Source: Amyelois transitella (lineage: Eukaryota; Arthropoda; Insecta; Lepidoptera; Pyralidae). From it: 64,000 nt of DNA. The DNA lies in the NCBI RefSeq assembly GCF_032362555.1, contig NC_083528.1, positions 930,001-994,000 of the forward strand, given 5' to 3'. This document shows positions 3,594 to 61,841 of the stretch, piece after piece. A program made the position numbers and the translations under genes. The number at the start of each line of letters is the position of its first letter. The first letter of the stretch is position 1. The notes beneath the pieces are model-generated. The model was not told the DNA's origin. It searched no databases and saw nothing but the letters and a program-made list of their open reading frames with translations.

Positions 3594-3855
3594 TGCCGTG
3601 TGGTTCCCGGCACCAATACAAAAAAGAATAGGACCACTCCATCTCTTTCCCATGTCGTAAAAGGCGACTAAGGGATAGGCTTATAAATTTGGGATTCTTC
3701 TTTTAGGCGATGGGCTAGCAACCTGTCACTATTTGAATCTCAATTCTATCATTAAGCCAAATAGCTGAACGTGGCCATTTAGTCTTCAAGACTGTTGGCT
3801 CTGTCTACCCCGCATGGGATATGGACGTGACCATATGTATGTATGTATGTATGTA
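3594..3855 (+). repeat. Family A SINE, full length reference copy
   Basis: About 262 bp. The 5-prime end TGCCGtgtggttccCGGCA is a small stem-loop. Conserved blocks follow: gaataggaccactcc, cccatggatgtcgtaaaagg, ggcgatgggctagcaacctg, ctatttgaatctcaattcta, gctgaacgtggcc, ctgtctaccccgc and gacgtgaccatatg. The 3-prime end is a (TATG)n tail. There is no ORF and no clear tRNA A/B box pair. The tail resembles the end of the RTE-like LINE fragments in this window (family R), which suggests that machinery mobilised it. It shares diagnostic bases with 61586-61841. Confidence 0.85.
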
Positions 3856-5509: not shown

Positions 5510-7426
5510 TTAATCAACTTCTTCTACGGTGGGTCCGCTCCTTTGGTAATCGCCACCCGGCATGCCCCCTGGCATTCCCCCGGGCATGCCTCCAGCGCCG
5601 CCGCCGTGCATCTTCGTCATGACTGGAGAGCACACGCGTTGGACGTCCTTCAAGCGATGTTCATACTCGTCCTTCTCCGCTAAGGTGTTATTATCCAGCC
5701 ATTTCAAAGCATCCTCGCAGGCACTGCGCGCCGTCTGCTTGTCCTCCTCACTCAATTTGTCCCCGGCTTCGTCAACCGCCTGCTTCACGCTGAACACATA
5801 CGATTCCAGTTGGTTACGAGAGGCCACCCGTTCTCTCTGCCGCTCGTCTTCCTCCTTGTATCTTTCTGCCTCATTCAACATCCTCTCGATCTCCGCTTGC
5901 GACAGACGACCCTTGTCATTCTTAATGACGATGTTCTTGCTTCGGCCAGTGCTGTTCTCCTTCGCAGAAACGTTCAGGATGCCGTTAGCGTCCATGTCGA
6001 AGGTGACCTCGATCTGTGGGACGCCGCGCGGGGCCGGTGGAATGCCCGTCAGGTCGAAGGTGCCCAGCAAGTTGTTGTCTTTCGTCATCGCTCGCTCACC
6101 CTCGTAAACCTGGATTGTAACTGCTGGCTGGTTGTCCGAATAAGTCGTGAATGTCTGCGATTGCTTGCAAGGGATCTTAGAGTTGCGTTCGATGATTTTA
6201 GTCATGACACCGCCGGCCGTCTCGATGCCGAGAGACAGCGGAGCCACGTCCACCAATAGCACATCTTGGATCTTAGAATCGGTGGAGCCGCTCAAGATGG
6301 CCGCTTGCACTGCCGCACCGTACGCAACCGCTTCATCCGGATTGATGGAAAGGTTCAATTTCTTGCCGCAGAAGAAGTTCTGGAGTAAACTTTGCACCTT
6401 GGGGATGCGCGTCGAACCGCCGACTAGGACGACGTCGTGGATTTGGCTCTTGTCTAGCTTGGCGTCCTTCAGGGCCTTCTCGACGGGATCCAAAGTGCCG
6501 CGGAACAGGTCTGCGCAGAGTTCCTCGAAGCGAGCCCGGGATACCCTGGTGTAGAAGTCGATACCTTCATACAAGGCGTCGATTTCGATGGTGGCTTCAG
6601 TGCTAGATGATAGAGTGCGTTTTGCGCGCTCCGCAGCAGTACGAAGACGCCTCAACGCGCGGGAATTGGTCTTCAAATCCTTCTTGTATTTGCGTTTGAA
6701 TTCCTCAGCTAGGTGGTTGACCAGTCTGTTGTCGAAGTCCTCGCCGCCGAGATGGGTGTCGCCGGCCGTCGACTTGACTTCAAACAGCGAGCCTTCGTCG
6801 ATGGTAAGAACGGAGACGTCGAAAGTGCCGCCTCCGAGGTCAAAGATGAGTACGTTTCTCTCGCCTTTCAAGTTCTTGTCGAGGCCGTAAGCGAGCGCGG
6901 CCGCGGTTGGTTCGTTGATGATGCGTAGGACGTTCAGGCCGGCTATGGCGCCCGCATCCTTCGTCGCCTGCCTCTGTGAGTCATTGAAATAAGCCGGCAC
7001 TGTGATCACCGCGTCGCGCACTGTCGTTCCTAAATACGCCTCCGCAGTCTCCTTCATTTTTGTGAGGACCATGCTGCTGATTTCTTCAGGTGCAAATCGC
7101 TTCGTTTCACCCTTGAACTCGACCTGAATTTTGGGTTTGCTGCAGTCGTTGATCACTTTGAAGGGCCAGTGTTTCATGTCTTGTTGGATTTTAGGATCGT
7201 CGAATTTTCTCCCGATGAGTCGCTTAGCGTCGAAGACTGTGTTGTTTGGATTCAGGGCGACCTGGTTCTTAGCTGCATCGCCGATGAGTCGCTCTGTGTC
7301 TGTGAAGGCGACGTATGATGGCGTGGTACGGTTGCCCTGGTCGTTGGCGATGATTTCCACGTTTCCGTGCTGCCAAACTCCGACGCAGGAGTAGGTGGTT
7401 CCAAGATCGATTCCTACAGCTGGCAT
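5510..7426 (-). CDS. Hsp70: Heat shock protein 70, cytosolic, heat-inducible type
   Basis: A 638-residue ATP-dependent chaperone that binds and refolds unfolded proteins in cytosol and nucleus. Seen: IDLGTTYS at residues 6-13 (Hsp70 signature 1), [14 protein letters not shown] near 195-210 (signature 2), [13 protein letters not shown] near 332-345 (signature 3). The C-terminal lid ends in GGMP repeats and the EEVD tail that recruits TPR co-chaperones, so it is cytosolic rather than ER or mitochondrial. There is one uninterrupted exon, as in stress-inducible insect Hsp70 genes, with slightly short but normal length (family about 635-655). The start is the first ATG, in context ATGCC. A TATA box and HSEs lie upstream and a poly(A) signal downstream. 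GC-rich third positions contrast with the AT-rich surroundings and explain the long antisense open frames. A constitutive Hsc70 would normally have introns. Confidence 0.97.
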
Positions 7427-7575
7427 TTTGTATTTTCTTGATTCTTGTAACGATGAATACTTTCAATAATAATTACTTGCGTAATAACTTCGGTCTGCAC
7501 CGAACTCGTAAACACTTTTTGACTATCTTGTATCGTGTTTCAAATAATACTGCCCTTCCCGCGCAGCGGGCCGCG

Positions 7576-9692: not shown

Positions 9693-12684
9693 CTATTTCA
9701 CCTTTTCCAATAAACTTTCTACCTCTTCATAACTAAGTGGTTTCAACCATTCCAATAGCTTATCTTTGCATTGGTGATATGTCAAAGGGTATATATTTAA
9801 TTGCCTGTTTATTTTATTGTACAAGACAGATGAGCTCTTCTCGAATTGTACGCTGGCAAATTGGGTATTAGTAATTGGGACATTTGCCACTATGTCTTTC
9901 CGTCTCTTATTTTGAAAGGACGTATTGTAAGACATAGATTTATGTTTTTTTAGTATCAGTTCTAGAATATATAATTTTCTAACCGTCAATATACCCGTGG
10001 TTTTATAAAGTTGTTCTGTAGAATATCTTTTTTTTTTAAAGTTGGCTACTTTTAGTAATGCTCGCTGTGCGCGTTCCACCGACAAGAATTTAGTTTTAAG
10101 CGCACCTCCCCAAACGGGGATGCAGTAAATTAGTACTGATTGTACTAAAGCTATATATATTATTGAGAGAAGATTTTTTGATTCTAAATTACTGTCCTTC
10201 CCAGGATTTGGAATCACATGTCGTAGTGTTTTAAAAAGCCAGATCAATTTTCGCACTCTATCCGATAATTGTTCCAAGTGCGCGTGCCATGATAACCTTT
10301 GATCTAATACAACTCCAAGATATTTAGTGGATGAAACTTTATCTATTTTAGTACAGTTGCAGTCGTCATCTGTTGAATCACAGGTATGTATTTTTATTTC
10401 AAAATCACCTTTGGGTTGTGTGCGGTTATTTAAAGTAAAGCAGATATAATTTGTTTTCAATGTATTTAGTGTTAGTAAATTAGCGTCTAGCCATTTAGTA
10501 ACTCGAGACATACCTTGCTCAGCCATTTTTTTTTATATCTAACCAAGATTTACCAGTAAAAACGATGGCAGTATCATCAGCGTATGAGAATATATTTGCT
10601 TGTTTTATTTTCATGTTGCAGAGGTCATTTAAATATATGAGAAATAGTGTAGGGCCTAATACGCTGCCTTGGGGTACACCGTATGTCATCTCTGCGTCGT
10701 CACTTGTGATATCATCCAGTTTAACTTTTTGTTTCCTTCCAGAGAGATAATCCCTAAGTAATGATAGTGCCACTCCTCTTATTCCTACTTTTTCTAACTT
10801 TTCTAAAAGTATGGGAATGGAAACCGTGTCAAAAGCTTTCTTAAGGTCTAGGAAGATACATAGACATTTCTTTCCTTTATCAAGCTCGTTTGTTACTAGA
10901 GAAGTTAAGGCTGTCACAGCATCTTGAGTTGATTTTCCTTGCCTGAATCCAAATTGGTAGGGTGATAGAATATCGAACTTTTTCAGATAATTAATCAGTC
11001 TATTGTTTAGTAACTTCTCTATAATTTTCGAAATTGCAGTCAAAACAGAAATTGGACGATAGTTACATGGGTCGCCTCTTTCCCCTCCCTTATAAACAGG
11101 TGTAATTAAGGAGCGCTTTAGTAGCTCAGGGAATGTACCGTGATTAAAACATAAGTTAGCTAGATGTGTGATGGTGGGGATAATCTCATTTTGACCATGT
11201 TTTAGATATTTAGTAGTTATATTATCCCACCCGGGTGCACTATTGGATTTAAGGTTAATTAAAATGCTATTTACTTCTGCTATGTCGGTTTCCAGTAGAA
11301 CAAATGATTGGGGTTGAGATGGTATTTCATTTATAAAAGATTTGATATTATCATTTGTGCGTAATGTAATCTTTTGGGCAAGTTCTTTCCCAGTGTTAAC
11401 AAAGTAATTATTTATTGCATTGGCCGCTTCTATTGGTGTAGGTTTAATATTTAATAATTCTGTATTTTTTCGTTTAGTTTTATTTGTGTACGTTATATTT
11501 TTTATATTATTCCATAATGATTTATTATTATTGATAGATTTGGCAATTAATTCTCTTTCATAATTCCTTTTTAATTTTTTTATTAGATTATTGCAATGAT
11601 TTCGATATCTTAAGTAAATAATTTTAATTGTTTCATTACTAGGGTTATTTTTATGCTCTCTTTGTAACTTATTGCGGTTTTTAATACATCTTAAAATATT
11701 ACCAGGGGTTATCCATGGCTTTAATATTCGTTTACTTTTAGGAACATGTCTAATGTTTGTGTTGATTTTTATGGAATTGCTTAATTTTTCGATCAAAACT
11801 TGGATCACTAGATCTGGGTTATCACAGAAAAGAAGATCGGATAAATGTTGTTCCTGCAAGTATTTTAGAGCCTGATCGAAGTCAATATTTGTACTAAATT
11901 TGGACACCGGTATATTATTATGATGTTGTTTGGATAAAGTCAAGAATACTGACAAATGATCTGTGATAGTACTATGTAAGATGGCAAGAGTTGCCGCGAT
12001 TCTTTTTTTATTTAACTTTAACATAATGTGATCCAAACAACTTTTATCTCTAGTTGGTAACGTGTGTCCTGGTAATATACCCAACGTTGCTAACGCATTA
12101 AGATATTTTATTCTGTTATCGTATTTGTATTTTATTTCTCCATCCTTAGGTATTAGATCAATATTTATATCTCCCGTAACAATGATACTTTTTTGAGTCT
12201 TTATGGATTCTAGGTGCGAGATCAAAGAATTTGTAAAATTTTCAGTACTTTTGTTTGATGGTGAGCGATATATGCATAAAACAATATTGTTTAGGATTTC
12301 CACTTGTAGACAAGATGCACCAGAGAGTCTTATTTCTTTGATTTTAGCTCCGACTGTATCTTTCACATATACCACAACCCCATCATTTTGGTTTAACTGA
12401 TAAGTGGTAACATAAGAATTATAATTGGTAAGTTGAGGCACAGGTTTATCTAGTGAAAGTCGACACTCTGTTAAAACAATTAAATCCATGTCAAAAGGGA
12501 GAAAACTAAGATTGGTTATAAAGTCGTCGAAATTGCAATATATGCTTCTTATATTCTGGGTTATCAATGTAAAATCATTTTTGTTTACACTTACGTTACT
12601 TGTTAGATCGCAATAGTCACACTCTATATTCCTTGCCACTGTTATATTGTCTAAGTCATCTAGGGTTCGTACCATATCATCCAT
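9693..12684 (-). pseudogene. LINE ORF2: endonuclease-reverse transcriptase, one frameshift
   Basis: Two frames abut at an A9 run (plus-strand T9, 10526-10534) and together give about 996 codons, the usual ORF2 size. The AP-type endonuclease lies roughly in residues 35-250 (QNIRS, the catalytic E in LTECRL, GDINIDL, the LDH motif and TDHLSV near its end). Reverse transcriptase follows with GWDNITTKYLK, NYRPISVL, QFGFRQGKSTQDA, FLDLKKAFDTV, YGVPQGSVLGPTLF and the catalytic YADD. The frame shifts just after YADDTAIVF; the second frame (9693-10526) is the thumb and C-terminal domain. The enzyme nicks DNA and primes reverse transcription at the nick. The break may be a true 1-bp change or a base-calling error in the homopolymer. 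Confidence 0.85.
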
Positions 12685-13021
12685 TGCATAAAGTATAAGT
12701 ATAGATATAGGGTAAAAACACAGTTGTTGTGTGAGGTAAATTGGTATTTTTTAAGGTGATTAAATGACTTGTTATATAGGATATAGGTTTTATTATGAAT
12801 TGATTTAAATCTGTGATTAGATTATTGTGTTCTAGAGGATAACATATGCAATTTAAATTGTAATTACGTACTACTATTTTTTTCATATAAAAGTTAGACA
12901 CAGAATAAATGAAATAACGATTGTAACTAAAAGAAAAATAACAAAAATAAATAAAGGAGCAGAGACTAATATTACATTCAAAAACGAGAGATAACAAAGA
13001 AACTAATGCAAGCAAAAATAG
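12685..13021 (-). other. LINE inter-ORF spacer with open frame
   Basis: 337 bp between the ORF1 stop and the ORF2 ATG. One minus-strand frame stays open from 13015 to 12677 (112 codons) and overlaps the ORF2 start by 8 bp, but it has no early ATG and shows no family motif. Confidence 0.4.
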
Positions 13022-13927
13022 TCATTCACTAATCTTTAGATTCTGAATATTTATTTCACTTTTAATTTGAATAATAGGCGAGTTTTCATTTTTCCTAATG
13101 TAGACCTTTCCATATGCCGTCCAGCAGAATTTAAAGAAGTTGCTCTTGGCGAAGTCCCGTGCCAGGAAAAATAAACGGGCCGCTTTCGCCGTCAGCTGCT
13201 CCGCAACAAATACAGGAGTATCCTCACTTATCTTCAGGCCAAGATGTTTGGCACACAATTTTGTTTTTTGCCTCACATTAAAACTCTTGCATAACTTGAG
13301 TACGTCATTTTTTAGTATGGTGGACGAGGTTTCTACGATTATGGGTGGATTTTTTACTCCTTCCTTTTTGACTCGTACTCTGAAGACATCCTTAATGTCT
13401 TCCTTTTTAATTTGGGAACCAATAGTACGTGAAAGATTAAGAACCATGTCTACCAGATCTTCCTTTGACTCGTTGGGTTTTTTTGGCACGTTTTTTATTT
13501 CCAAATTGGTTTTCCTTACGTCCATCTGCATGTTTTCTATTTTGTCTTCTAGTAAAGCTATGTGTTTTTTGTCTTCCTTTCTTTCTTCCTGGAGTTTTGT
13601 TATTGTTCTCTTCAACTCTTCATTTTGGGCAGTTACAAAAGCCACTGAAGTTTCTATGTTGCAGCTAGATCGTTGAATTTCTTTCAAAGTAACTGTGTTT
13701 TTTTCCAGCTGTTTCTGTTGTGCAGACATAAGTGATGTAATGAAGGCCTTCATTTCTTCTTTGAATTCGATTAGGTCAGACTGCGGCTCGTCTTGCCTCC
13801 TTCTTTTGTTACGTAGTGAAACATAGTGTTCGCCCCCGGTTGATAAATTCGGATCCGATTGGAATTGCGTTGCACATAGGAGATTCGTTATTATCGCGTT
13901 TGGTGATTCCGGTGGAGTGCGCTGCAT
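13022..13927 (-). CDS. LINE ORF1: coiled-coil RNA-binding-type protein with FP-like domain
   Basis: 301 residues, intact, starting at ATG 13927-13925. Residues about 50-140 are rich in E, K, Q and heptad leucines (a likely coiled coil for multimerisation). Residues about 160-295 resemble the FP25K-like C-terminal domain found in ORF1 of many lepidopteran CR1-type LINEs and often misannotated as zinc-finger DNA-binding protein (ARLFFLARDFAK, WTAYGKVYIRKNE). Known role of ORF1 proteins: packaging element RNA. No CCHC zinc knuckle is seen. Function is inferred from position ahead of ORF2. Confidence 0.75.
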   Translation of the reverse strand: MQRTPPESPNAIITNLLCATQFQSDPNLSTGGEHYVSLRNKRRRQDEPQSDLIEFKEEMKAFITSLMSAQQKQLEKNTVTLKEIQRSSCNIETSVAFVTAQNEELKRTITKLQEERKEDKKHIALLEDKIENMQMDVRKTNLEIKNVPKKPNESKEDLVDMVLNLSRTIGSQIKKEDIKDVFRVRVKKEGVKNPPIIVETSSTILKNDVLKLCKSFNVRQKTKLCAKHLGLKISEDTPVFVAEQLTAKAARLFFLARDFAKSNFFKFCWTAYGKVYIRKNENSPIIQIKSEINIQNLKISE

Positions 13928-14008
13928 GTTTGTCTATTTATTATAATATTCTGTTATAAATTACCTTGTTTACTAATCAACCGAATGATCCGTATTGTAC
14001 TCCGACCG

Positions 14009-18158: not shown

Positions 18159-20309
18159 TTAATCGACCTCCTCCATGCGCGAAGCATCATCAGCATCTCC
18201 TTCCAATGGGGGGACATCACCAGCGCTCGATTCCTCGACTTGAATGGGTTCATCCTCATCAATGCCAAGTCCAAGTTTGATCATGCGGTAGATCCTGGAA
18301 GCATGGACCTGAGGCTCGTCCAAAGTGAAGCCAGAAGACAGCAGGGCAGTCTCGTACAAGAGGATGACCAAATCCTTGACAGCCTTGTCATTCTTGTCAG
18401 CCTCGGCCTTCTGCCTCAAAGTCTCGATGATAGAGTGGTCAGGGTTGATCTCCAGGTGCTTCTTGGCGGCCATGTAACCCATGGTAGAAGTGTCACGGAG
18501 TGCCTGTGCCTTCATGATGCGCTCCATGTTAGCTGACCAACCATACTGGGCAGTGACAATGCAGCAGGGAGATTCCACTAATCGGTTTGACACAACAACC
18601 TTTTCAACTTTGTTGTCAAGGATGTTCTTCATGACTTTGCACAGGTTTTCAAATTTGACTTTGTCTTCCTCGCGCTTCTTCTTCTCTTCCTCATCCTCAG
18701 GCAGCTCCAGACCTTCCTTGGTGACGGAAACTAGGGATTTGCCATCATATTCCCTCATTTGTTGGACTACATATTCATCAATGGGCTCAGTCATGTAGAT
18801 TACTTCATAGCCACGTTTCTTGACTCGCTCAACAAATGAAGAGTTGGCCACCTGGTCACGGTTTTCACCAGTGATGTAGTAGATGTGTTTCTGGTTCTCC
18901 TTCATGCGAGAAACATACTCCTTGAGAGAGCAGACATCATCACCGGAGGCGGATGTGTGGTAACGAAGCAAGTCAGCCAGTTTGGATCTGTTTTGAGAGT
19001 CCTCATGGATTCCAAGCTTCAAATTCTTGCTGAACTGTTCATAATACTTCTTGTAATTCTCTTTGTCTTCCGCCAACTCTTCGAACAGTTCCAAGCATTT
19101 CTTAACTAAGTTCTTCCTAATTACTTTGAGAATCTTGTTTTGCTGTAACATTTCTCGGGAAATGTTGAGAGGCAGGTCCTCACTGTCAACCACACCCTTG
19201 ATGAAGTTCAGATACTCTGGGATCAGGTCCTCGCAGTTGTCCATAATAAATACTCTGCGAACATACAGTTTAATGTTGTTCTTGCGTTTCTTATTTTCAA
19301 AGAGGTCGAATGGAGCGCGACGTGGGACAAACAAGAGAGCTCTGAACTCAAGCTGGCCCTCAACGGAGAAGTGTTTTACAGCTAAATGGTCTTCCCAGTC
19401 GTTTGTTAGAGATTTGTAGAAGTCACCATACTCTTCCTGGGTGATGTCATCAGCATTACGGGTCCAGATGGGCTTGGTCTTGTTTAGTTCTTCATCTTCA
19501 GTGTATTTTTCTTTGATGGTTTTCTTCTTTTTCTTATCTTTCTTGTCCTCCTCCTCGTCTTCCCCAACGTCCTCAATCTTAGGTTTCTCATCTTCTCCCT
19601 CCTCTTTCTTTTCTTCCTCAACTTCATCGTCAGACAACTCCTTCTCACGCTCCTTCTCAACAACAAGTTTGATTGGGTAACCGATGAACTGCGAGTGCTT
19701 CTTTACGATTTCCTTAATTTTATGCTCTTCCAGGAATTCGGACAAGTCTTCCTTCACGTGTAGAACGATCTTTGTACCACGGCCGAGGGGCTCACCAGGG
19801 TCTGGGCGAATGGTGAAGGAACCGCCCGCAGCAGACTCCCACATGTACTGGTCGTCATCATTGTGTTTCGAGTGGACTGTCACGCGGTCGGCAACCAAGT
19901 AGCAGGAGTAGAAACCCACACCGAACTGACCGATCATACTGATGTCAGCGCCGGCTTGCAACGCCTCCATGAAAGCCTTTGTTCCAGACTTCGCAATCGT
20001 ACCCAAGTTGTTCACTAAATCGGCCTTTGTCATACCAATTCCTGTGTCAATGATAGTCAGGGTACCTTCGCTCTTGTTCGGGATGATCTTGATGTACAAT
20101 TCCTTGCCGCTGTCCAACTTAGACGGGTCAGTGAGAGATTCATACCGGATTTTGTCCAAAGCATCTGAAGAGTTGGAAATCAGCTCACGAAGGAAGATCT
20201 CTTTGTTGGAGTAGAATGTGTTGATAATGAGGGACATGAGCTGGGCGATCTCCGCTTGGAAGGCGAAGGTCTCCACCTCGCCGGACTGGGTCTGCATTTC
20301 TTCAGGCAT
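18159..20309 (-). CDS. Hsp90: Heat shock protein 90 (Hsp83), cytosolic
   Basis: 716 residues. A dimeric ATP-dependent chaperone that matures kinases, receptors and other clients with Hsp70. Seen: an N-terminal GHKL ATPase domain with [23 protein letters not shown] and the GTIAKSGT lid segment; a highly charged E/K linker near residues 210-265; the middle domain ([18 protein letters not shown]); and a C-terminal dimerisation domain ending in MEEVD, the TPR-docking tail of cytosolic Hsp90. The start is the ATG at 20309-20307 in context AACAAGATGCC. The frame is open 10 codons further up but begins there without an ATG. Single exon, as reported for lepidopteran Hsp90, unlike the Drosophila gene with a 5-prime UTR intron. 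TATA box and HSE lie upstream. Confidence 0.97.
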
Positions 20310-20477
20310 CTTGTTATTTTTCACTGAACTTTCACACAAATTTATTTTACTTATAGAGTTTATGACTAGCGTGGTTTAATTTAGCACGTGTTAAAATATC
20401 GCTTCGTAGCGCAGGTTTTCACAGCAACTTGTTCTCTTTGTATTTCTCAAATAATGCCGGGGCTGAGCTGTCAAAGT

Positions 20478-23637: not shown

Positions 23638-23794
23638 CACTGCGCCAAGCTTGCTCAGCAGTATTTTGTACAGAACGCGAGTACTGTTCAAGCGAATTAC
23701 ACGCGAAACGACTCATTTTCCTGCGAGTTTTTGTGAATATCGGCGTTTCAACTCCTGATTCATTATTTAGTACTCCAGTGAGCCGTATTATACA

Positions 23795-24373
23795 ATGGCG
23801 CTATTACCATATTTATTCGACGAGTTACGTCCCCGCCGCATCCGTAACCAACTCTTTGGACTGGATCTGTCTCCAAACGACTTCCTGACTGACGTCTTCG
23901 ACCGCCCATCAATTCAGGTCAGAAAATACATTCGTCCCTGGAGGAACTTAGCGGCTGTGGCAAGAGACGTGGGTTCTACCATTAAAACCGACAAAGATAA
24001 ATTCCAGGTGAATTTGGACGTCCAGCATTTTGCTCCTGAAGAGATTTCGGTGAAGACTGCTGATGGGTACATCGTCATTGAAGGAAAACACGAAGAGAAG
24101 GAGGATGAACATGGATATGTATCAAGGCAGTTCAAACGCCGCTACGCTCTGCCTGAAGGTTGTAACCCCGAGACAGTTGAGTCTAAATTGTCGTCAGATG
24201 GCGTTCTATCGGTGATCGCGCCAAAATCTTCGGCTGGTGTTAAAAATGAAAGAGCGATTCCCATCACTCACACAGGCCCTGTGAGAAGGAAGGCTGCTGA
24301 TGAGGAAGAGAAGGTGGAAAATGGAGAAGCTGAAGAAGAAGTGAAGTCGCCGCAGAAGAAAAGAAGGCGTTGA
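23795..24373 (+). CDS. Small heat shock protein, lethal(2)essential-for-life type (Hsp20 family)
   Basis: 192 residues. ATP-independent holdase that keeps unfolding proteins soluble for Hsp70. Seen: an N-terminal arm with WRNLAAVARD, then an alpha-crystallin domain at about residues 62-148 (FQVNLDVQHFAPEEISVK, GYIVIEGKHEE, the RQFKRRYALPEG loop, SSDGVLSVIAP). A C-terminal IPI motif near 155-157 (ERAIPITHTGP) docks into neighbouring subunits. An acidic then basic tail follows (EEEKVENGEAEEE, KKRRR), which could act as a nuclear-type signal; that is inference. Start ATG in context acaATGG. Single exon, with HSE and TATA upstream and AATAAA at 24442. It is divergent from Hsp90 and convergent with the scramblase-like gene. 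Confidence 0.93.
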   Translation: MALLPYLFDELRPRRIRNQLFGLDLSPNDFLTDVFDRPSIQVRKYIRPWRNLAAVARDVGSTIKTDKDKFQVNLDVQHFAPEEISVKTADGYIVIEGKHEEKEDEHGYVSRQFKRRYALPEGCNPETVESKLSSDGVLSVIAPKSSAGVKNERAIPITHTGPVRRKAADEEEKVENGEAEEEVKSPQKKRRR

Positions 24374-39533: not shown

Positions 39534-39950
39534 TTATTCATCCAAATTTATTTTATCACCTTCAAAATATGCTCCTTTAGAAACGATACACTTACGCCAA
39601 CGAATAATCCAATCATCAAAACATTTTTTAAACGCTGTTTCCGGAATTGAGGTCAGTTCTCGCCGCGAATTCTCTTTTATGTCTTCTACCGATTGAAAAC
39701 GGGTGCCACGAAGTGGTAATTTGAGTTTAGGAAAAAGAAAAAAGTCGGCTGGAGCCATATCTGGTGAATATGGTGGTTGCTCGATGGTATTTGTTGAGTG
39801 TTTGGTTAAAAATTCGTTCACAATGATGGCCTTGTGCGAAGGTGCATTATCATGGTGCAAAATCCAAGAATTTTCTTTCCACAAATCTGGCCTTTTTCGT
39901 CGGATTTGCTCTCTTAAATAAATAATCCATTCTCGATACTTTTCTGACTG
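39534..39950 (-). pseudogene. Mariner-family transposase, C-terminal fragment
   Basis: About 138 residues of an open frame. Seen: HHDNAPSH carrying the second catalytic aspartate and SPDMAPADFFLF carrying the third, with 34 residues between them (the D34D spacing of mariner). The C-terminal part follows, with FKKCFDDWIIRWRKCI. The N-terminal DNA-binding domain and first aspartate are missing; upstream of residue S in SEKYREW the sequence changes to an unrelated TA-rich stretch. The terminal repeat at the left end may start about 39481 (actctgtcaaaaaagtagca); no matching right end was found. Dead copy. Confidence 0.85.
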
Positions 39951-41033
39951 AATGTATGTATATAAAGTATATGTAATTGTATATGCTACATACAGACAAA
40001 TATATAATGACCTTGTAAGGTTTATTATACACGTGACTGATTGCATCGTGAAATAAAATTGGTAGCATTGACGCGTCCTGTCAGTGTGCCGGCATAGAGG
40101 AGCTTACTTTATAGAGACTAGCCTTTGTTATTCCTTATTTTTTGGCCTGCATTTGTGTCACACTGCTGCGCAAATTCCATAAAGCTTTAACCGAAGCATC
40201 ATTTTGCCATAGAGTTTAGGTTTAGAAATATATTTGAAGATGTCATTGTCATCTCACTATCTTATCTGGTCTTTTTTGAGCTGAGAGGAATTTCTCTAAC
40301 GTTGTTAAGGCTTATCGTGTATCTCTTCCTTTTTTTTGAAACAAAAACTAATCCGAGATTCATGCTCTAAGTTCTTTAGCTTGTCCACATTCTCTCACAA
40401 AATAATTTGCTTTATTTTGTACGGTCAAGTACCTTAACCCACAAATTTGCATAGAGTTATGAATGTGGATAAAGCGTCAAAAGTGTGCAAAGATAATGGC
40501 AAGTGGAAAGATGTAGTCTTTGTCTTCATAGATAGAGAACATTTCAATAAAAAATAATGGTAAGTAGTAGACACTGGTACCACTCCAAAAAAAGAACCGT
40601 AATTTTATACAAATATGTAATCATATAAGGCTTGGGCTCTCATCTTTTGCTACTCTGTGCATCCTAGACGCATTGACGTGAAGTTCTGTCAACCTTTGAC
40701 ATTTCGAGAGGGAACGCGGCCTGGCATTTTTCATGACGAAGTGGGGAATGAAAATATGATAGCCATGTTATTTATTAAAAGCCTCATCGAGCCTTTAAAG
40801 TTATGGCAGGATTAGTAGGAATATGAAGGTGACCGAAAGCCAACTATGACTAAGATTTAGGGTGGGTAAGGTGGTGAGTTAGTTATTCTATCATATAAGC
40901 GAACGAGGTCTGATTACCGGAAGCACGTTAAGACCGCCGAGATTGCAAAATAAATACGTAAATAATAAATAAATACATAATAAACAAAATAAATAATTGA
41001 AAAATAAACAAATATACACGGTACAAATTACAC
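39951..41033. other. Intergenic, mostly unrecognised
   Basis: A worn family R scrap (agttatgaatgtggataaag, ggcaagtggaaagatgtag) at 40450-40525. No gene. Confidence 0.4.
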
Positions 41034-48606: not shown

Positions 48607-48732
48607 ATAAGTTAGTTGAAATTATTTAGAAAATAATCTAACTACGTGCTATTATCTTCAGAGCTTATTTATCTGGTATCTTTAAAGCCAATCATTAATT
48701 AAACACAAATATTTTTTCAATTAAATAATATC

Positions 48733-49414
48733 GGTTTGTTCCCATTCAGTCACACCTCGATCTGTAACACTGTTACTCAATGGGAAAAAAATTCCCGTTG
48801 TGTAGCAGTGGTACACATTGCAACTATCGTTTTCCCAATGAGTAACACTGTTACACAATGGCACTTTGTATTCCCGATCACTAACACTGGTTAAGAATAT
48901 TTTTAATAAAAGCATTTCTAATGTTTGTTTAATTAGTTCTCAATTGAAAAAGAATAAGTCATGTAACGAATTAGTGTAGAAAATACATATATTGTAGTCG
49001 CTAATGTTTTTCATTGTTTATTAAGTGACGTCATTTACTTACCTGAATTACTTGAACCCTGCGCCAGCTCACTTGCGGCGTATTTCAAAGCACAATTGAA
49101 ACAATAGATTTCGTGGAACTGGATGGCCGAAAAGAGATAAGATCGAAGACTACAATATATGTATTTTCTACATTAATTCGTTACATGTCTTATTCTTTTT
49201 CAGTTTAAAACTAATTAAACAAACATTAGAAATGCTTTTATAAAAAATATTGTTAACCAGATTTAAAGATCGGGAATACAAAGTGCCATTGTGTAACAGT
49301 GTCACTCATTTGGAAAACGATAGTTGCAATGTGTACCACTGCTACACAACGGGAATTTTTTTCCCATTGAGTAACAGTGTTACAGATCGAGGTGTGACTG
49401 AATGGGAACAAACC
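48733..49414. mobile_element. Fold-back DNA transposon, 267-bp inverted arms, 8-bp target duplication
   Basis: 682 bp. Arms 48733-48999 and 49148-49414 are inverted copies (about 254 of 267 positions equal). Termini read GGTTTGTTCCCATTCAG. Perfect duplicated target ATAATATC at 48725-48732 and 49415-49422. The arms carry several small palindromes of the GTAAC-act-GTTAC kind. The 148-bp centre has no ORF. Eight-bp duplications are known for hAT, P and Merlin groups; the GG start is not typical of hAT. Superfamily uncertain. Confidence 0.85.
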
Positions 49415-49422
49415 ATAATATC

Positions 49423-51789: not shown

Positions 51790-52053
51790 TACATACATAC
51801 ATACATATGGTCACGTCTATATCCCTTGCGGAGTAGACAGAGCCAATAGTCTTGGAAAGACTGAATGGCCACGTTCAGCTATTTGGCTTAATGATAGGAT
51901 TGAGATTCAAATAGTGACAGGTTGCTAGCCCATCGCCTAAAAAAAGAATCCCAAGTTTGTAAGCCTATCCTTCAATCGCCTTTTATGACATCCATGGGAA
52001 AGAGATGGAGTGGTCCTATTATTTTTTGTATTGGTGCCGGGAACCACACGGCA
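51790..52053 (-). repeat. Family A SINE, full length and well kept
   Basis: ATAC tail, ggagtagacagagccaatag, gccacgttcagctatttggc, all blocks to the head ggtgccgggaaccacacggc. A good reference for the minus orientation. Confidence 0.85.
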
Positions 52054-56983: not shown

Positions 56984-57964
56984 TTATTCGTATTTCGTTA
57001 ATTCAACACTATTATTCCACACCTTTTCTACAAGATCATTGTTTTTCGCTTTTTTTGACGGCGAAGTAATTTTACAATCAACGAAATATTCACCAGAAAT
57101 ATTATCTAAATCTGGACTAACGCAAAGATGTATTGTAGTTTGGGCACCTTCTTTTGGGTTCTTAAATAGGATGTTCATGATTGCTAGGATAATATTCTCA
57201 AAAATTGGATAAAAATGATTAAAAAGATTAGTTTTAACTGGGCCAGGGTGTAAGCAATTAACTGTTACACCTCTAGGCAGTCTTTTGGACAAGGCTTTAG
57301 TCCAAAGTACATTGCACAATTTACTATTAGCATATTTAAATAAGATGTTGAGATATAAATTATTCAATCCAGCAAGATCGTTGTCGTCAAAATAAGAGGC
57401 TAAATGAATGCAAGAAGAAACTATGACTATTCTGCTTGGCTTACATTTTATCAGCTTCTCTAATAATAAACTTGTGAGTAAGAAAGGTCCCAAATGGTTG
57501 ATTTGCATTACATTGTTCATTCCATCTTCAGTGATTTTATCAGCACCAACAAAGCCAGCGTTATTCACTAAAATATCCAGACGATCAACAGTTTTGTTGA
57601 AATCTTCAGTGAAATCTCTGATACTCTTAAACTTTGACAAATCTAAATGTTTATATTCCACATTAGGATTCCCAGTTGTAGATTTGATATCTTCGACAGC
57701 GATTTTAGACTTCTGCTCATTACTGCTAGCAATTATTACTCTTGCTCCTCTGCTGGCTAGATCTCTAGCTGTTTCTAATCCTATTCCCGAGTTTCCTCCA
57801 GTAATAAGTGCCACTTTATTATCTAATCTCGTTGTACATTTGCATGTACCTTTCTTCGGCTCGATGAATATCCTCCAAGCGATGGTAAAAACGATTACAA
57901 ATAATGAAACGCTTATGATTACTTTCACCAGGCACGTAAAAACAAAGAATAGAACCTCCAACAT
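56984..57964 (-). CDS. Short-chain dehydrogenase/reductase, retinol dehydrogenase 11-like (copy 1)
   Basis: 326 residues. NAD(P)-dependent oxidoreductase of the RDH11-15 group; the true substrate in insects is unknown (retinoids, lipid aldehydes, other alcohols are possible). Seen: an N-terminal membrane segment (about residues 4-34) followed by a short basic stretch, the nucleotide motif TGGNSGIG at 55-62, NNAG at 134-137, catalytic S184 in IVIVSS and YxxxK as Y211-ANS-K215, then HPGPVKT. All catalytic residues are present. Likely anchored in the endoplasmic reticulum with the enzyme in the cytosol (inference). Single exon; start is the ATG at 57964. The stop TAA lies inside AATAAA. It lies about 1.2 kb downstream of copy 2, in the same orientation. 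Confidence 0.9.
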   Translation of the reverse strand: MLEVLFFVFTCLVKVIISVSLFVIVFTIAWRIFIEPKKGTCKCTTRLDNKVALITGGNSGIGLETARDLASRGARVIIASSNEQKSKIAVEDIKSTTGNPNVEYKHLDLSKFKSIRDFTEDFNKTVDRLDILVNNAGFVGADKITEDGMNNVMQINHLGPFLLTSLLLEKLIKCKPSRIVIVSSCIHLASYFDDNDLAGLNNLYLNILFKYANSKLCNVLWTKALSKRLPRGVTVNCLHPGPVKTNLFNHFYPIFENIILAIMNILFKNPKEGAQTTIHLCVSPDLDNISGEYFVDCKITSPSKKAKNNDLVEKVWNNSVELTKYE

Positions 57965-58713
57965 GGTGGCGCGTTTGAAGACTGATTAAAGTCGAGCCTC
58001 ACGTAAGTATAATATAATTGTATGCAAATGTTGTCACTGGATTGTCGTTTTGTAAATAATCCAAACAGAATTCTTGATAGTCGTTGATTGACATTTTAGT
58101 TTTAAGCAGTACCTATTGTTATTTATACCCGTGTGGTTTTGGCCACTTTAGAATACGAACACTCCATATTTTCTCAGTCAATTAAAGGTTATAAAGGGAA
58201 AAAGTTTTCTGGTAATACAATCGTTTCTACGCTGGTTTGATATTGGAGAAAAAGACGTAATGTGTGCTAGCTGCTTCGTAACAGTCTTGAAAAGACCGAA
58301 AGACCACGTTCAGCTGGTGCGTTTTGCTTGCTTTTTTGTTTTGCTGGTGAGGTGCCCGGTTAAAATACGTGATGTGAAAAAAAAGGGACAGGTTCAAATC
58401 CATAAATTCAATCCAGGTATTAGTTATAAAACTAACCGATGCTCTTTTAAAAAAAATACAAATTTAGAATTACCCTTGATACACTAATAGTTGGTGGTAA
58501 CCACGTGGTAACTAAAGGAATTTTCGTAGAAGTCTTATTTGTCACGCCTGTAAAAGTTTGGTGAGTTATAAGGTCCATTCTTAATTTTAAGACCAAAGTA
58601 CCAACACTGAGTTGAGTTGGCAAACGAATGAATATGAATGTAATTACTCACTTCCCAATAAGGTCATTATTAGAAAATGGCCGTACCACTTCGTTCTAGA
58701 TAGACTTAACTGA
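57965..58713. other. Spacer between the two dehydrogenase genes
   Basis: Holds a worn family A head (58130-58200, ccgtgtggttttggccactt) and a minus-strand family A scrap (58278-58320, acagtcttgaaaagaccgaa). No further gene. Confidence 0.5.
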
Positions 58714-59158: not shown

Positions 59159-60232
59159 CTATTTCGAACTTTTCAATCGGCTTAAAAGCCGAGGATCACA
59201 ATTAGTCGTCTTTTGAATCAATTTAATAGTGTCATTCCAAACTTTATCCACTAGATTATTATCACTCGCCTTTCTAGACATTTGACTAACTTTACAATCA
59301 GAAAAATATTCCCCCGACACGTTTTCTACGTCAGAACTCACGCACAAATGAATTGTTGTTTGTGCACCTTCTTCTGCATTCTTGAAAAATGCATACTTAA
59401 TCATTGCCAATACTGGAATTCTTATAACAGGATGAACATTGTTGAAAATGTTTGTATAAACAACACCAGGATGCAAGCAATTCACTGTGACACCACTAGG
59501 TAATCTCTTTGACAAGGCTTTAGTCCAAAGCACGTCACATAATTTACTATTGGCATATCTAAACCACATAGTAGCGTTGTCCTTAAAAATAACATCGTAA
59601 CCTTTAATTTTAACGCTACAAAACAAGTCTTTCAATCCAGGTAGATCTTCAGGATCGAAATAGGAAACTTGATGGGCACAAGAAGTAACAATGACAATTC
59701 TACTCGGTCTTGATTCAATTAACTTATCAATAAGTAGAGATGTAAGTAAAAACGGCCCCAAATAGTTGATTTGCATAACTACATTCATTCCATCTTCAGT
59801 TATAGTTTCTGCACCGGCAAAACCCGCATTATTAACTAAAACATCTAATCGATTAACTGTTTTCTTGAAATCTTCAGCGAATTTTGTAACACTTCTGAAT
59901 TTAGATAAATCTAAATGTCTGTATTCGACGTTTATGTTTCCAGTTGTAGCTATGATATCTTTAACAGCTAACTTAGATTTTTCGTCATTAGAGCTGGCGA
60001 TAATTACTCTTGCTCCTCTCCTGGCTAGATCTCTTGCTGTTTCTAATCCTATGCCTGAATTTCCACCAGTCACGAGAGCCACTTTGCCTTTGAGCTTCGT
60101 TTTGCATCTGCAGACACCTTTAGTTGGTTCGAGCCATAACTTTAATACGATAACAATAATAGTAGCCGTCAGGGCGACGTATAAGAGGATTTTTGATAAA
60201 AATGATAACACACAACAAATGTTAACAAACAT
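59159..60232 (-). CDS. Short-chain dehydrogenase/reductase, retinol dehydrogenase 11-like (copy 2)
   Basis: 357 residues from the ATG at 60232-60230; the frame is open 6 codons further up but without ATG. Same layout as copy 1: membrane anchor at about 5-34, TGGNSGIG at 55-62, NNAG at 134-137, S184, Y226-ANS-K230, HPGVVYT. It differs in having 15 extra residues (around 200-222, VKIKGYDVIFKD) just before the catalytic tyrosine and a longer C-terminal end with KSSK. Serine-to-tyrosine spacing in copy 1 is closer to what I expect for the family, so the extra loop is more likely an insertion here. Single exon, tandem paralogue. Confidence 0.9.
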   Translation of the reverse strand: MFVNICCVLSFLSKILLYVALTATIIVIVLKLWLEPTKGVCRCKTKLKGKVALVTGGNSGIGLETARDLARRGARVIIASSNDEKSKLAVKDIIATTGNINVEYRHLDLSKFRSVTKFAEDFKKTVNRLDVLVNNAGFAGAETITEDGMNVVMQINYLGPFLLTSLLIDKLIESRPSRIVIVTSCAHQVSYFDPEDLPGLKDLFCSVKIKGYDVIFKDNATMWFRYANSKLCDVLWTKALSKRLPSGVTVNCLHPGVVYTNIFNNVHPVIRIPVLAMIKYAFFKNAEEGAQTTIHLCVSSDVENVSGEYFSDCKVSQMSRKASDNNLVDKVWNDTIKLIQKTTNCDPRLLSRLKSSK

Positions 60233-60269
60233 GATCACAAAATTGATCACACAGAATGGAAGTCAACAC

Positions 60270-61585: not shown

Positions 61586-61841
61586 TGCCGTGTGGGTCCC
61601 GGCACCTACAAAAAAGAATAGGACCACTCCATCTCTTTCCCATGGATGTCGTAAAAGGCGACTAAGGGATAGGCTTATAAACTTGGGATTCTTCTTTTAG
61701 GCGATGGGCTAGCAACCTGTCACTATTTGAATTTCAATTCTATCATTAAGCCAAATAGCTGAATGTGGCCATTTAGTCTTCAAGACTGTTGGCTTTGTCT
61801 ACCCCGCATGGGATATAGACGTGACCATATGTATGTATGTA
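61586..61841 (+). repeat. Family A SINE, full length
   Basis: tgccgtgtgggtcccggcac to gtgaccatatgtatgtatgt. It shares with 3594-3855 the rare variants gccatttagtcttcaagact and ccccgcatgggatat, so the two form a young subfamily. Confidence 0.85.

Follow-up and report, generated by a model that had tools for sequence, protein, structure and literature searches.

A non-autonomous fold-back transposon family with GG ends and 8-bp target-site duplications in Amyelois transitella

Two long inverted arms lie close together in the window analysed here, a 64,000-nucleotide stretch of contig NC_083528.1 of A. transitella, and they raise the questions of whether they form a mobile element and, if so, which enzyme could have moved it. 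A preliminary description of this DNA had proposed 267-bp arms, a 148-bp centre and perfect 8-bp duplications, and its borders proved exact to the base: 254 of 267 arm positions are paired (95.1%, with 13 mismatches), 148 nt separate the arms, and ATAATATC stands on both sides. The outer 103 nt are identical between the arms, all 13 mismatches lying further in, and the longest stop-to-stop open reading frame (ORF) of the element is 69 aa. The features of the element, in window positions, are these:

48725..48732, no strand: left target-site duplication ATAATATC, same sequence as 49415-49422
48733..48999, plus strand: left arm (terminal inverted repeat, TIR), first bases GGTTTGTTCCC, 254/267 paired with the right arm
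48733..48888, plus strand: terminal module common to members with unlike interiors, ~156 bp aligned at 91-99% in both sub-groups
48764..48776, no strand: palindrome GTAACACTGTTAC, outer copy of the left arm, kept in the alignment of ends
48842..48854, no strand: palindrome GTAACACTGTTAC, inner copy of the left arm, from pattern search and alignment of ends
49000..49147, plus strand: centre, 148 bp, with no noteworthy open reading frame
49148..49414, minus strand: right arm (TIR), last bases GGGAACAAACC, pairing with the left arm
49293..49305, no strand: imperfect palindrome GTAACAGTGTCAC, inner copy of the right arm, from pattern search
49371..49383, no strand: palindrome GTAACAGTGTTAC, outer copy of the right arm, from pattern search
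49415..49422, no strand: right target-site duplication ATAATATC, same sequence as 48725-48732

The small palindromes that had been reported to recur in the arms are present, with exact copies at 48764 and 48842 (78 bp apart); less perfect copies lie between these two and beyond them, spaced 38-40 bp. When searched on both strands with up to two mismatches, GTAACACTGTTAC matched the window 12 times, 10 times in the element and twice at 12176 (shuffle control: mean 1.63, largest 8). Taken alone, the count of two palindromes with 6-bp halves in the left arm is only mildly unusual, being reached in 10 of 500 single-base shuffles. With up to three mismatches, the 22 nt at the start of the arm matched the window at the two element ends only (mean of 0.00 in 100 shuffles).

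Searches of the assembly (327 Mb, 33 contigs) placed the element in a genome-wide family. The whole element gave at least 111 match rows (40 of 58 candidates scored), and searching with 23 bases of the end, three mismatches being allowed, found 69 termini, versus 2 for the reversed control. Grouping termini less than 12 kb apart yielded 51 places, 17 of which hold two or more termini; inverted ends thus recur at different genomic places, as they do in cut-and-paste TIR transposons. A shorter, 15-base end pattern with one mismatch allowed matched 86 times, versus 20 in the control. All 54 exact matches and 12 of the 32 others were already known termini, and since the 20 left over equal the background, no second family sharing the tips only was seen in this assembly with this pattern. 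Some copies have multiplied by other means: two copies on contig C32 (L128 and L129) have more than 3.4 kb in common at 100%, flanks included, and a third (L130) has ~1.36 kb at 98.8%, so at least these three were multiplied by segmental duplication and do not count as separate insertions. The same contig carries a fourth copy, L161, and the long identical flanks of all four reflect segmental duplication there; the longest ORFs of L128-L130, which lie in the flanks, resemble non-LTR retrotransposon proteins by reading. Beyond this assembly, a 23-mer had no match in a collection of genome contigs, and in viral contigs a 20-mer matched once (L181), whereas a 15-mer matched 102 stretches, of which the 60 listed had end matches stopping at 15-20 bp, as expected by chance.

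To define the target duplication we considered 16 of the 17 two-ended members; the window copy is among the 16, and the copy on contig C15 is left out. Nine of the 16 have exact 8-bp duplications and five more have one or two mismatches; in the remaining two, L113 and L114, 3 and 4 of the 8 positions differ. One member, L116, was scored exact only with its start shifted outward by one base, and a count over 14 members had 6 exact. The duplicated octamers have an A+T-rich middle. Empty sites were sought for copy L122, whose host repeat is matched ~20 times in the window alone (e.g., 51794-51939, 3704-3847 and 61698-61841), using as query the L122 flanks joined with one copy of CCTGTCAC. The junction was spanned by 41 rows, 34 of them gap-free within 15 bp and 27 with the octamer CCTGTCAC; after overlapping loci were dropped there remained 35 distinct sequences, of which 28 had no gap and 22 carried the octamer. 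The other 7 of 35 alignments were gapped near the junction, five of them being 77-83% identical and two, both in L154, 87% and 93%. The GG...CC borders are therefore confirmed by paralogous empty sites. The confirmation comes from L122; the flanks of the window copy itself had no spanning match in the sequences examined. A duplication of constant length (9/16 exact) together with precise empty sites (28/35 gap-free) is the behaviour of a cut-and-paste TIR element. Two results thus bear out the initial reading of the locus as a fold-back transposon with GG ends and an 8-bp duplication: members with these ends occur across the genome, and L122 has matching empty sites.

We consider it very probable that the window element is a cut-and-paste DNA transposon of the fold-back type, with long TIRs and non-autonomous; this judgement applies to the kind of element and not to its superfamily. 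Its family appears to be new and of a known kind, unless a repeat library already names it.

Comparison of members reveals modular arms. About 156 bp at each end are common to members with unlike interiors, and the outer palindrome is conserved across 30 aligned ends (15 members), bar ends that are cut or mutated. The arms themselves range from 57 bp (L114) to ~320 bp (L113), a range that leaves out L117 and L123, whose alignments are poorly anchored. Over near full length the window element is 95.4% identical to L119 (885 bp), 93.8% to L122 (713 bp) and 93.3% to L120 (919 bp). Matches to the right end of the copy on contig C26 (L112) stand at 92.7% for the centre and right arm of the window element and, inverted, at 94.0% for its left arm. 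Because both arms match the one end, we read the window element as a shortened derivative, one of whose arms was probably lengthened with sequence of the other end. A further copy, on contig C3 (L111), contains a tandem array with a unit of ~120 bp at 1898-2731.

These features suggest how the family might have moved. Another element would supply a DDE transposase in trans, and this enzyme would bind the repeated palindromes of the terminal module, cut at the GG/CC ends and insert with an 8-bp stagger. The arms may have grown and shrunk through internal deletion and through copying of sequence from one end into the other, and the hairpin look would then arise from arm copying, without a hairpin function. 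A comparable arrangement has been described in Drosophila virilis, where the gene-less fold-back element Tetris and the MITE DAIBAM share the outer TIR only and probably have one mover; 220-bp tandem repeats lie inside the TIR there, which we do not see in the window element (PMC4079207).

We therefore looked for a partner that could encode such an enzyme. Among 14 two-ended members (118-1370 bp) the longest stop-to-stop ORF is 93 aa, and no family transposase was recognised in the ORFs at 29 of 35 unpaired termini, part of which were run against Pfam. Genome domain searches, which read exons without introns, gave 3 matches to the IS1595-type domain typical of Merlin (PF12762), 95 to the MULE domain (PF10551) and 17 to the P-type RNase H domain; the nearest to any of the 69 termini lay at 1.85 Mb, 42 kb and 114 kb, respectively. 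The surrounding DNA examined for the three IS1595-type domains (L151, L152 and L153) held no family ends, and these domains, which have no visible transposon ends, may be remnants or host genes. Two of them, L151 and L153, have an 800-bp stretch in common (90.9%). An autonomous element with the same ends, a search for which the preliminary description had proposed, was thus not found in this assembly through ORFs, domains or end patterns.

Four coding regions associated with family termini were considered as candidates and rejected. A 1029-aa ORF in the C26 copy is placed by other copies in a separate, nested element at about L112:1004-6041, which has its own ends and a 4-bp duplication (by eye); the protein had no relative in viral contigs. 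A piggyBac ORF in the C3 copy (Pfam DDE_Tnp_1_7, 1.4e-88) we infer to be nested as well. In L161 a hAT element with a hAT dimerisation domain (Pfam, 9.9e-21) is nested, since the host element picks up again past the hAT end and GTAACACT flanks the insertion on either side. The coding genes inside these three copies look like those of other, nested transposons. Lastly, a THAP ORF in L176 (Pfam THAP, 2.7e-08) lies behind a terminus truncated after ~126-144 bp, and the ORFs there look like host genes. The hAT element sits inside the outer palindrome of its host copy (L163/L161, C32:4979000-4983450), with TAGTGATG ends and a GTAACACT duplication.

The ends of the family were then compared with those of known superfamilies. 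piggyBac elements duplicate a TTAA target, which is absent at the edges of the 8-bp duplications. Merlin elements are described as having GG termini, target duplications of 8 or 9 bp and TIRs 24-462 bp long, and their non-autonomous, MITE-like members share with our family the terminal GG, the 8-bp duplication and a TIR within that range (PMC8101967); the family's TIRs measure 57 to ~320 bp. The earlier hint that the ends match no known class accordingly does not hold, given that GG, 8- or 9-bp duplications and long TIRs amount to the Merlin description (PMC8101967), with overlap from Mutator-like elements (PMC6446971). We regard a Merlin-type (IS1016/IS1595-like) enzyme as the likeliest source, at close to but below an even chance, and an enzyme of some kind other than Merlin, Mutator or P as a lesser though real possibility. 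Since the genome's only three IS1595-type domains show none of these ends, it is the ends that carry the Merlin assignment, and since the ends also fit Mutator ranges, the fit to Merlin is not exclusive. The family differs from Merlin in that no IS1016/IS1595-type transposase was found with its ends, and in its palindrome array, of which the excerpted Merlin description (PMC8101967) makes no mention. Given that the fit is not exclusive, we use the label "Merlin-like" but stop short of placing the family in Merlin, since proof of membership would take an encoding partner. In the annotation table of a study of the moth Helicoverpa armigera, the Merlin row reads 1, 1 and 30, far below most other superfamilies (PMC7764229); with Merlin this scarce in a moth, it would be no surprise if the partner were rare or had been lost.

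It is possible, if unlikely, that a Mutator-like (MULE) transposase moves the family, long arms and a fold-back shape being common in that group. MULEs have 8-11-bp duplications, which take in the family's 8 bp, their TIRs measure 14-500 bp, and in the insect clade Spectre the duplication is 8 bp (PMC6446971); the nematode family Tm1 combines fold-back-like TIRs with a Phantom-type transposase and mostly 9-bp duplications (PMC3169594). Like our family, MULEs and Tm1 are described as having long, composite, variable arms and a non-autonomous majority (PMC6446971, PMC3169594). MULE domains are also available in the genome, with 95 matches; however, all 95 lie at least 42 kb from each of the 69 termini, leaving every terminus without a MULE domain close by. 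MULE duplications are, moreover, most often 9 bp, whereas those of the family are 8 bp in 9 of 9 exact cases.

Less probable is a P-superfamily source resembling the fold-back element Galileo. P-element ends begin CA, which we counted against this reading. Like our family, Galileo has very variable arms into which interior sequence is recruited; its TIRs are long and internally repeated and are longest in non-autonomous, gene-less copies (PMC3573991). The genome holds 17 P-type RNase H domain matches that could in principle supply the enzyme, but the nearest lies 114 kb from a terminus. Galileo, with its P-type transposase, duplicates 7 bp (PMC3573991), in contrast to the 8 bp of the family.

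We think it quite improbable that the transposase behind these ends belongs to a lineage other than those covered by the Merlin, Mutator and P models searched, one that would read the ~39-bp-spaced palindromes and that the gene-less family would have outlived in this genome. Descent from hAT elements, which the 8-bp duplication might suggest, is very improbable: hAT elements insert at targets of the form nTnnnnAn and have CAG/TAG-type ends, whereas only 2 of the 9 exact duplications fit that pattern (by eye), and the hAT of the same genome ends TAGTGATG while the family ends GG. Least credible is the idea, raised in part by the preliminary description, that the inverted arms have been retained because a transcript folding into a hairpin supplies small-RNA pathways: the predicted RNA fold is very stable (-443 kcal/mol versus a mean of -142 in 20 shuffles), making a double-stranded transcript energetically possible, but that stability follows from the inverted arms themselves and so says nothing on expression, and the arms vary from 57 to ~320 bp among members.

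A Merlin-like, gene-less fold-back family is an ordinary kind of element and changes no general view. It does add to an insect genome a fold-back family with confirmed borders, and a further fold-back case with ends unlike those of Mutator or P, the two lineages whose fold-back forms are best described; with its terminal module, related species can readily be probed for the autonomous partner.

The nested element of the C26 copy is a separate transposon of ~5 kb (L112:1004-6041) with ends GAGTCATTTT, which we take, as a guess, to be Sola-type. Its duplications, read by eye, are ATAT, ATTT and AGGT. It has further copies (L132-L135) and a wider family (L142-L150), with at least 46 genome matches (45 of 292 candidates scored). 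Five copies are ~100% identical in protein and the 1029-aa frame is open in four of the five, and the element looks recently active. A Pfam search of its protein to an E-value of 1 returned a single, sub-threshold row (bpX0, 0.026).

Elsewhere in the window, genes for Hsp70 (5510-7462, minus strand), Hsp90 (18159-20375, minus) and Hsp20 (23771-24373, plus) lie within ~19 kb, the first two as single open frames, and two similar short-chain dehydrogenase genes form a tandem pair (56984-57985 and 59159-60262, both minus). A non-LTR retrotransposon at 9693-13933 (minus) has a reverse transcriptase domain as well as long open frames. At 39534-40103 (minus) lies a mariner-like remnant whose DDE_3 match falls just under the cut-off.
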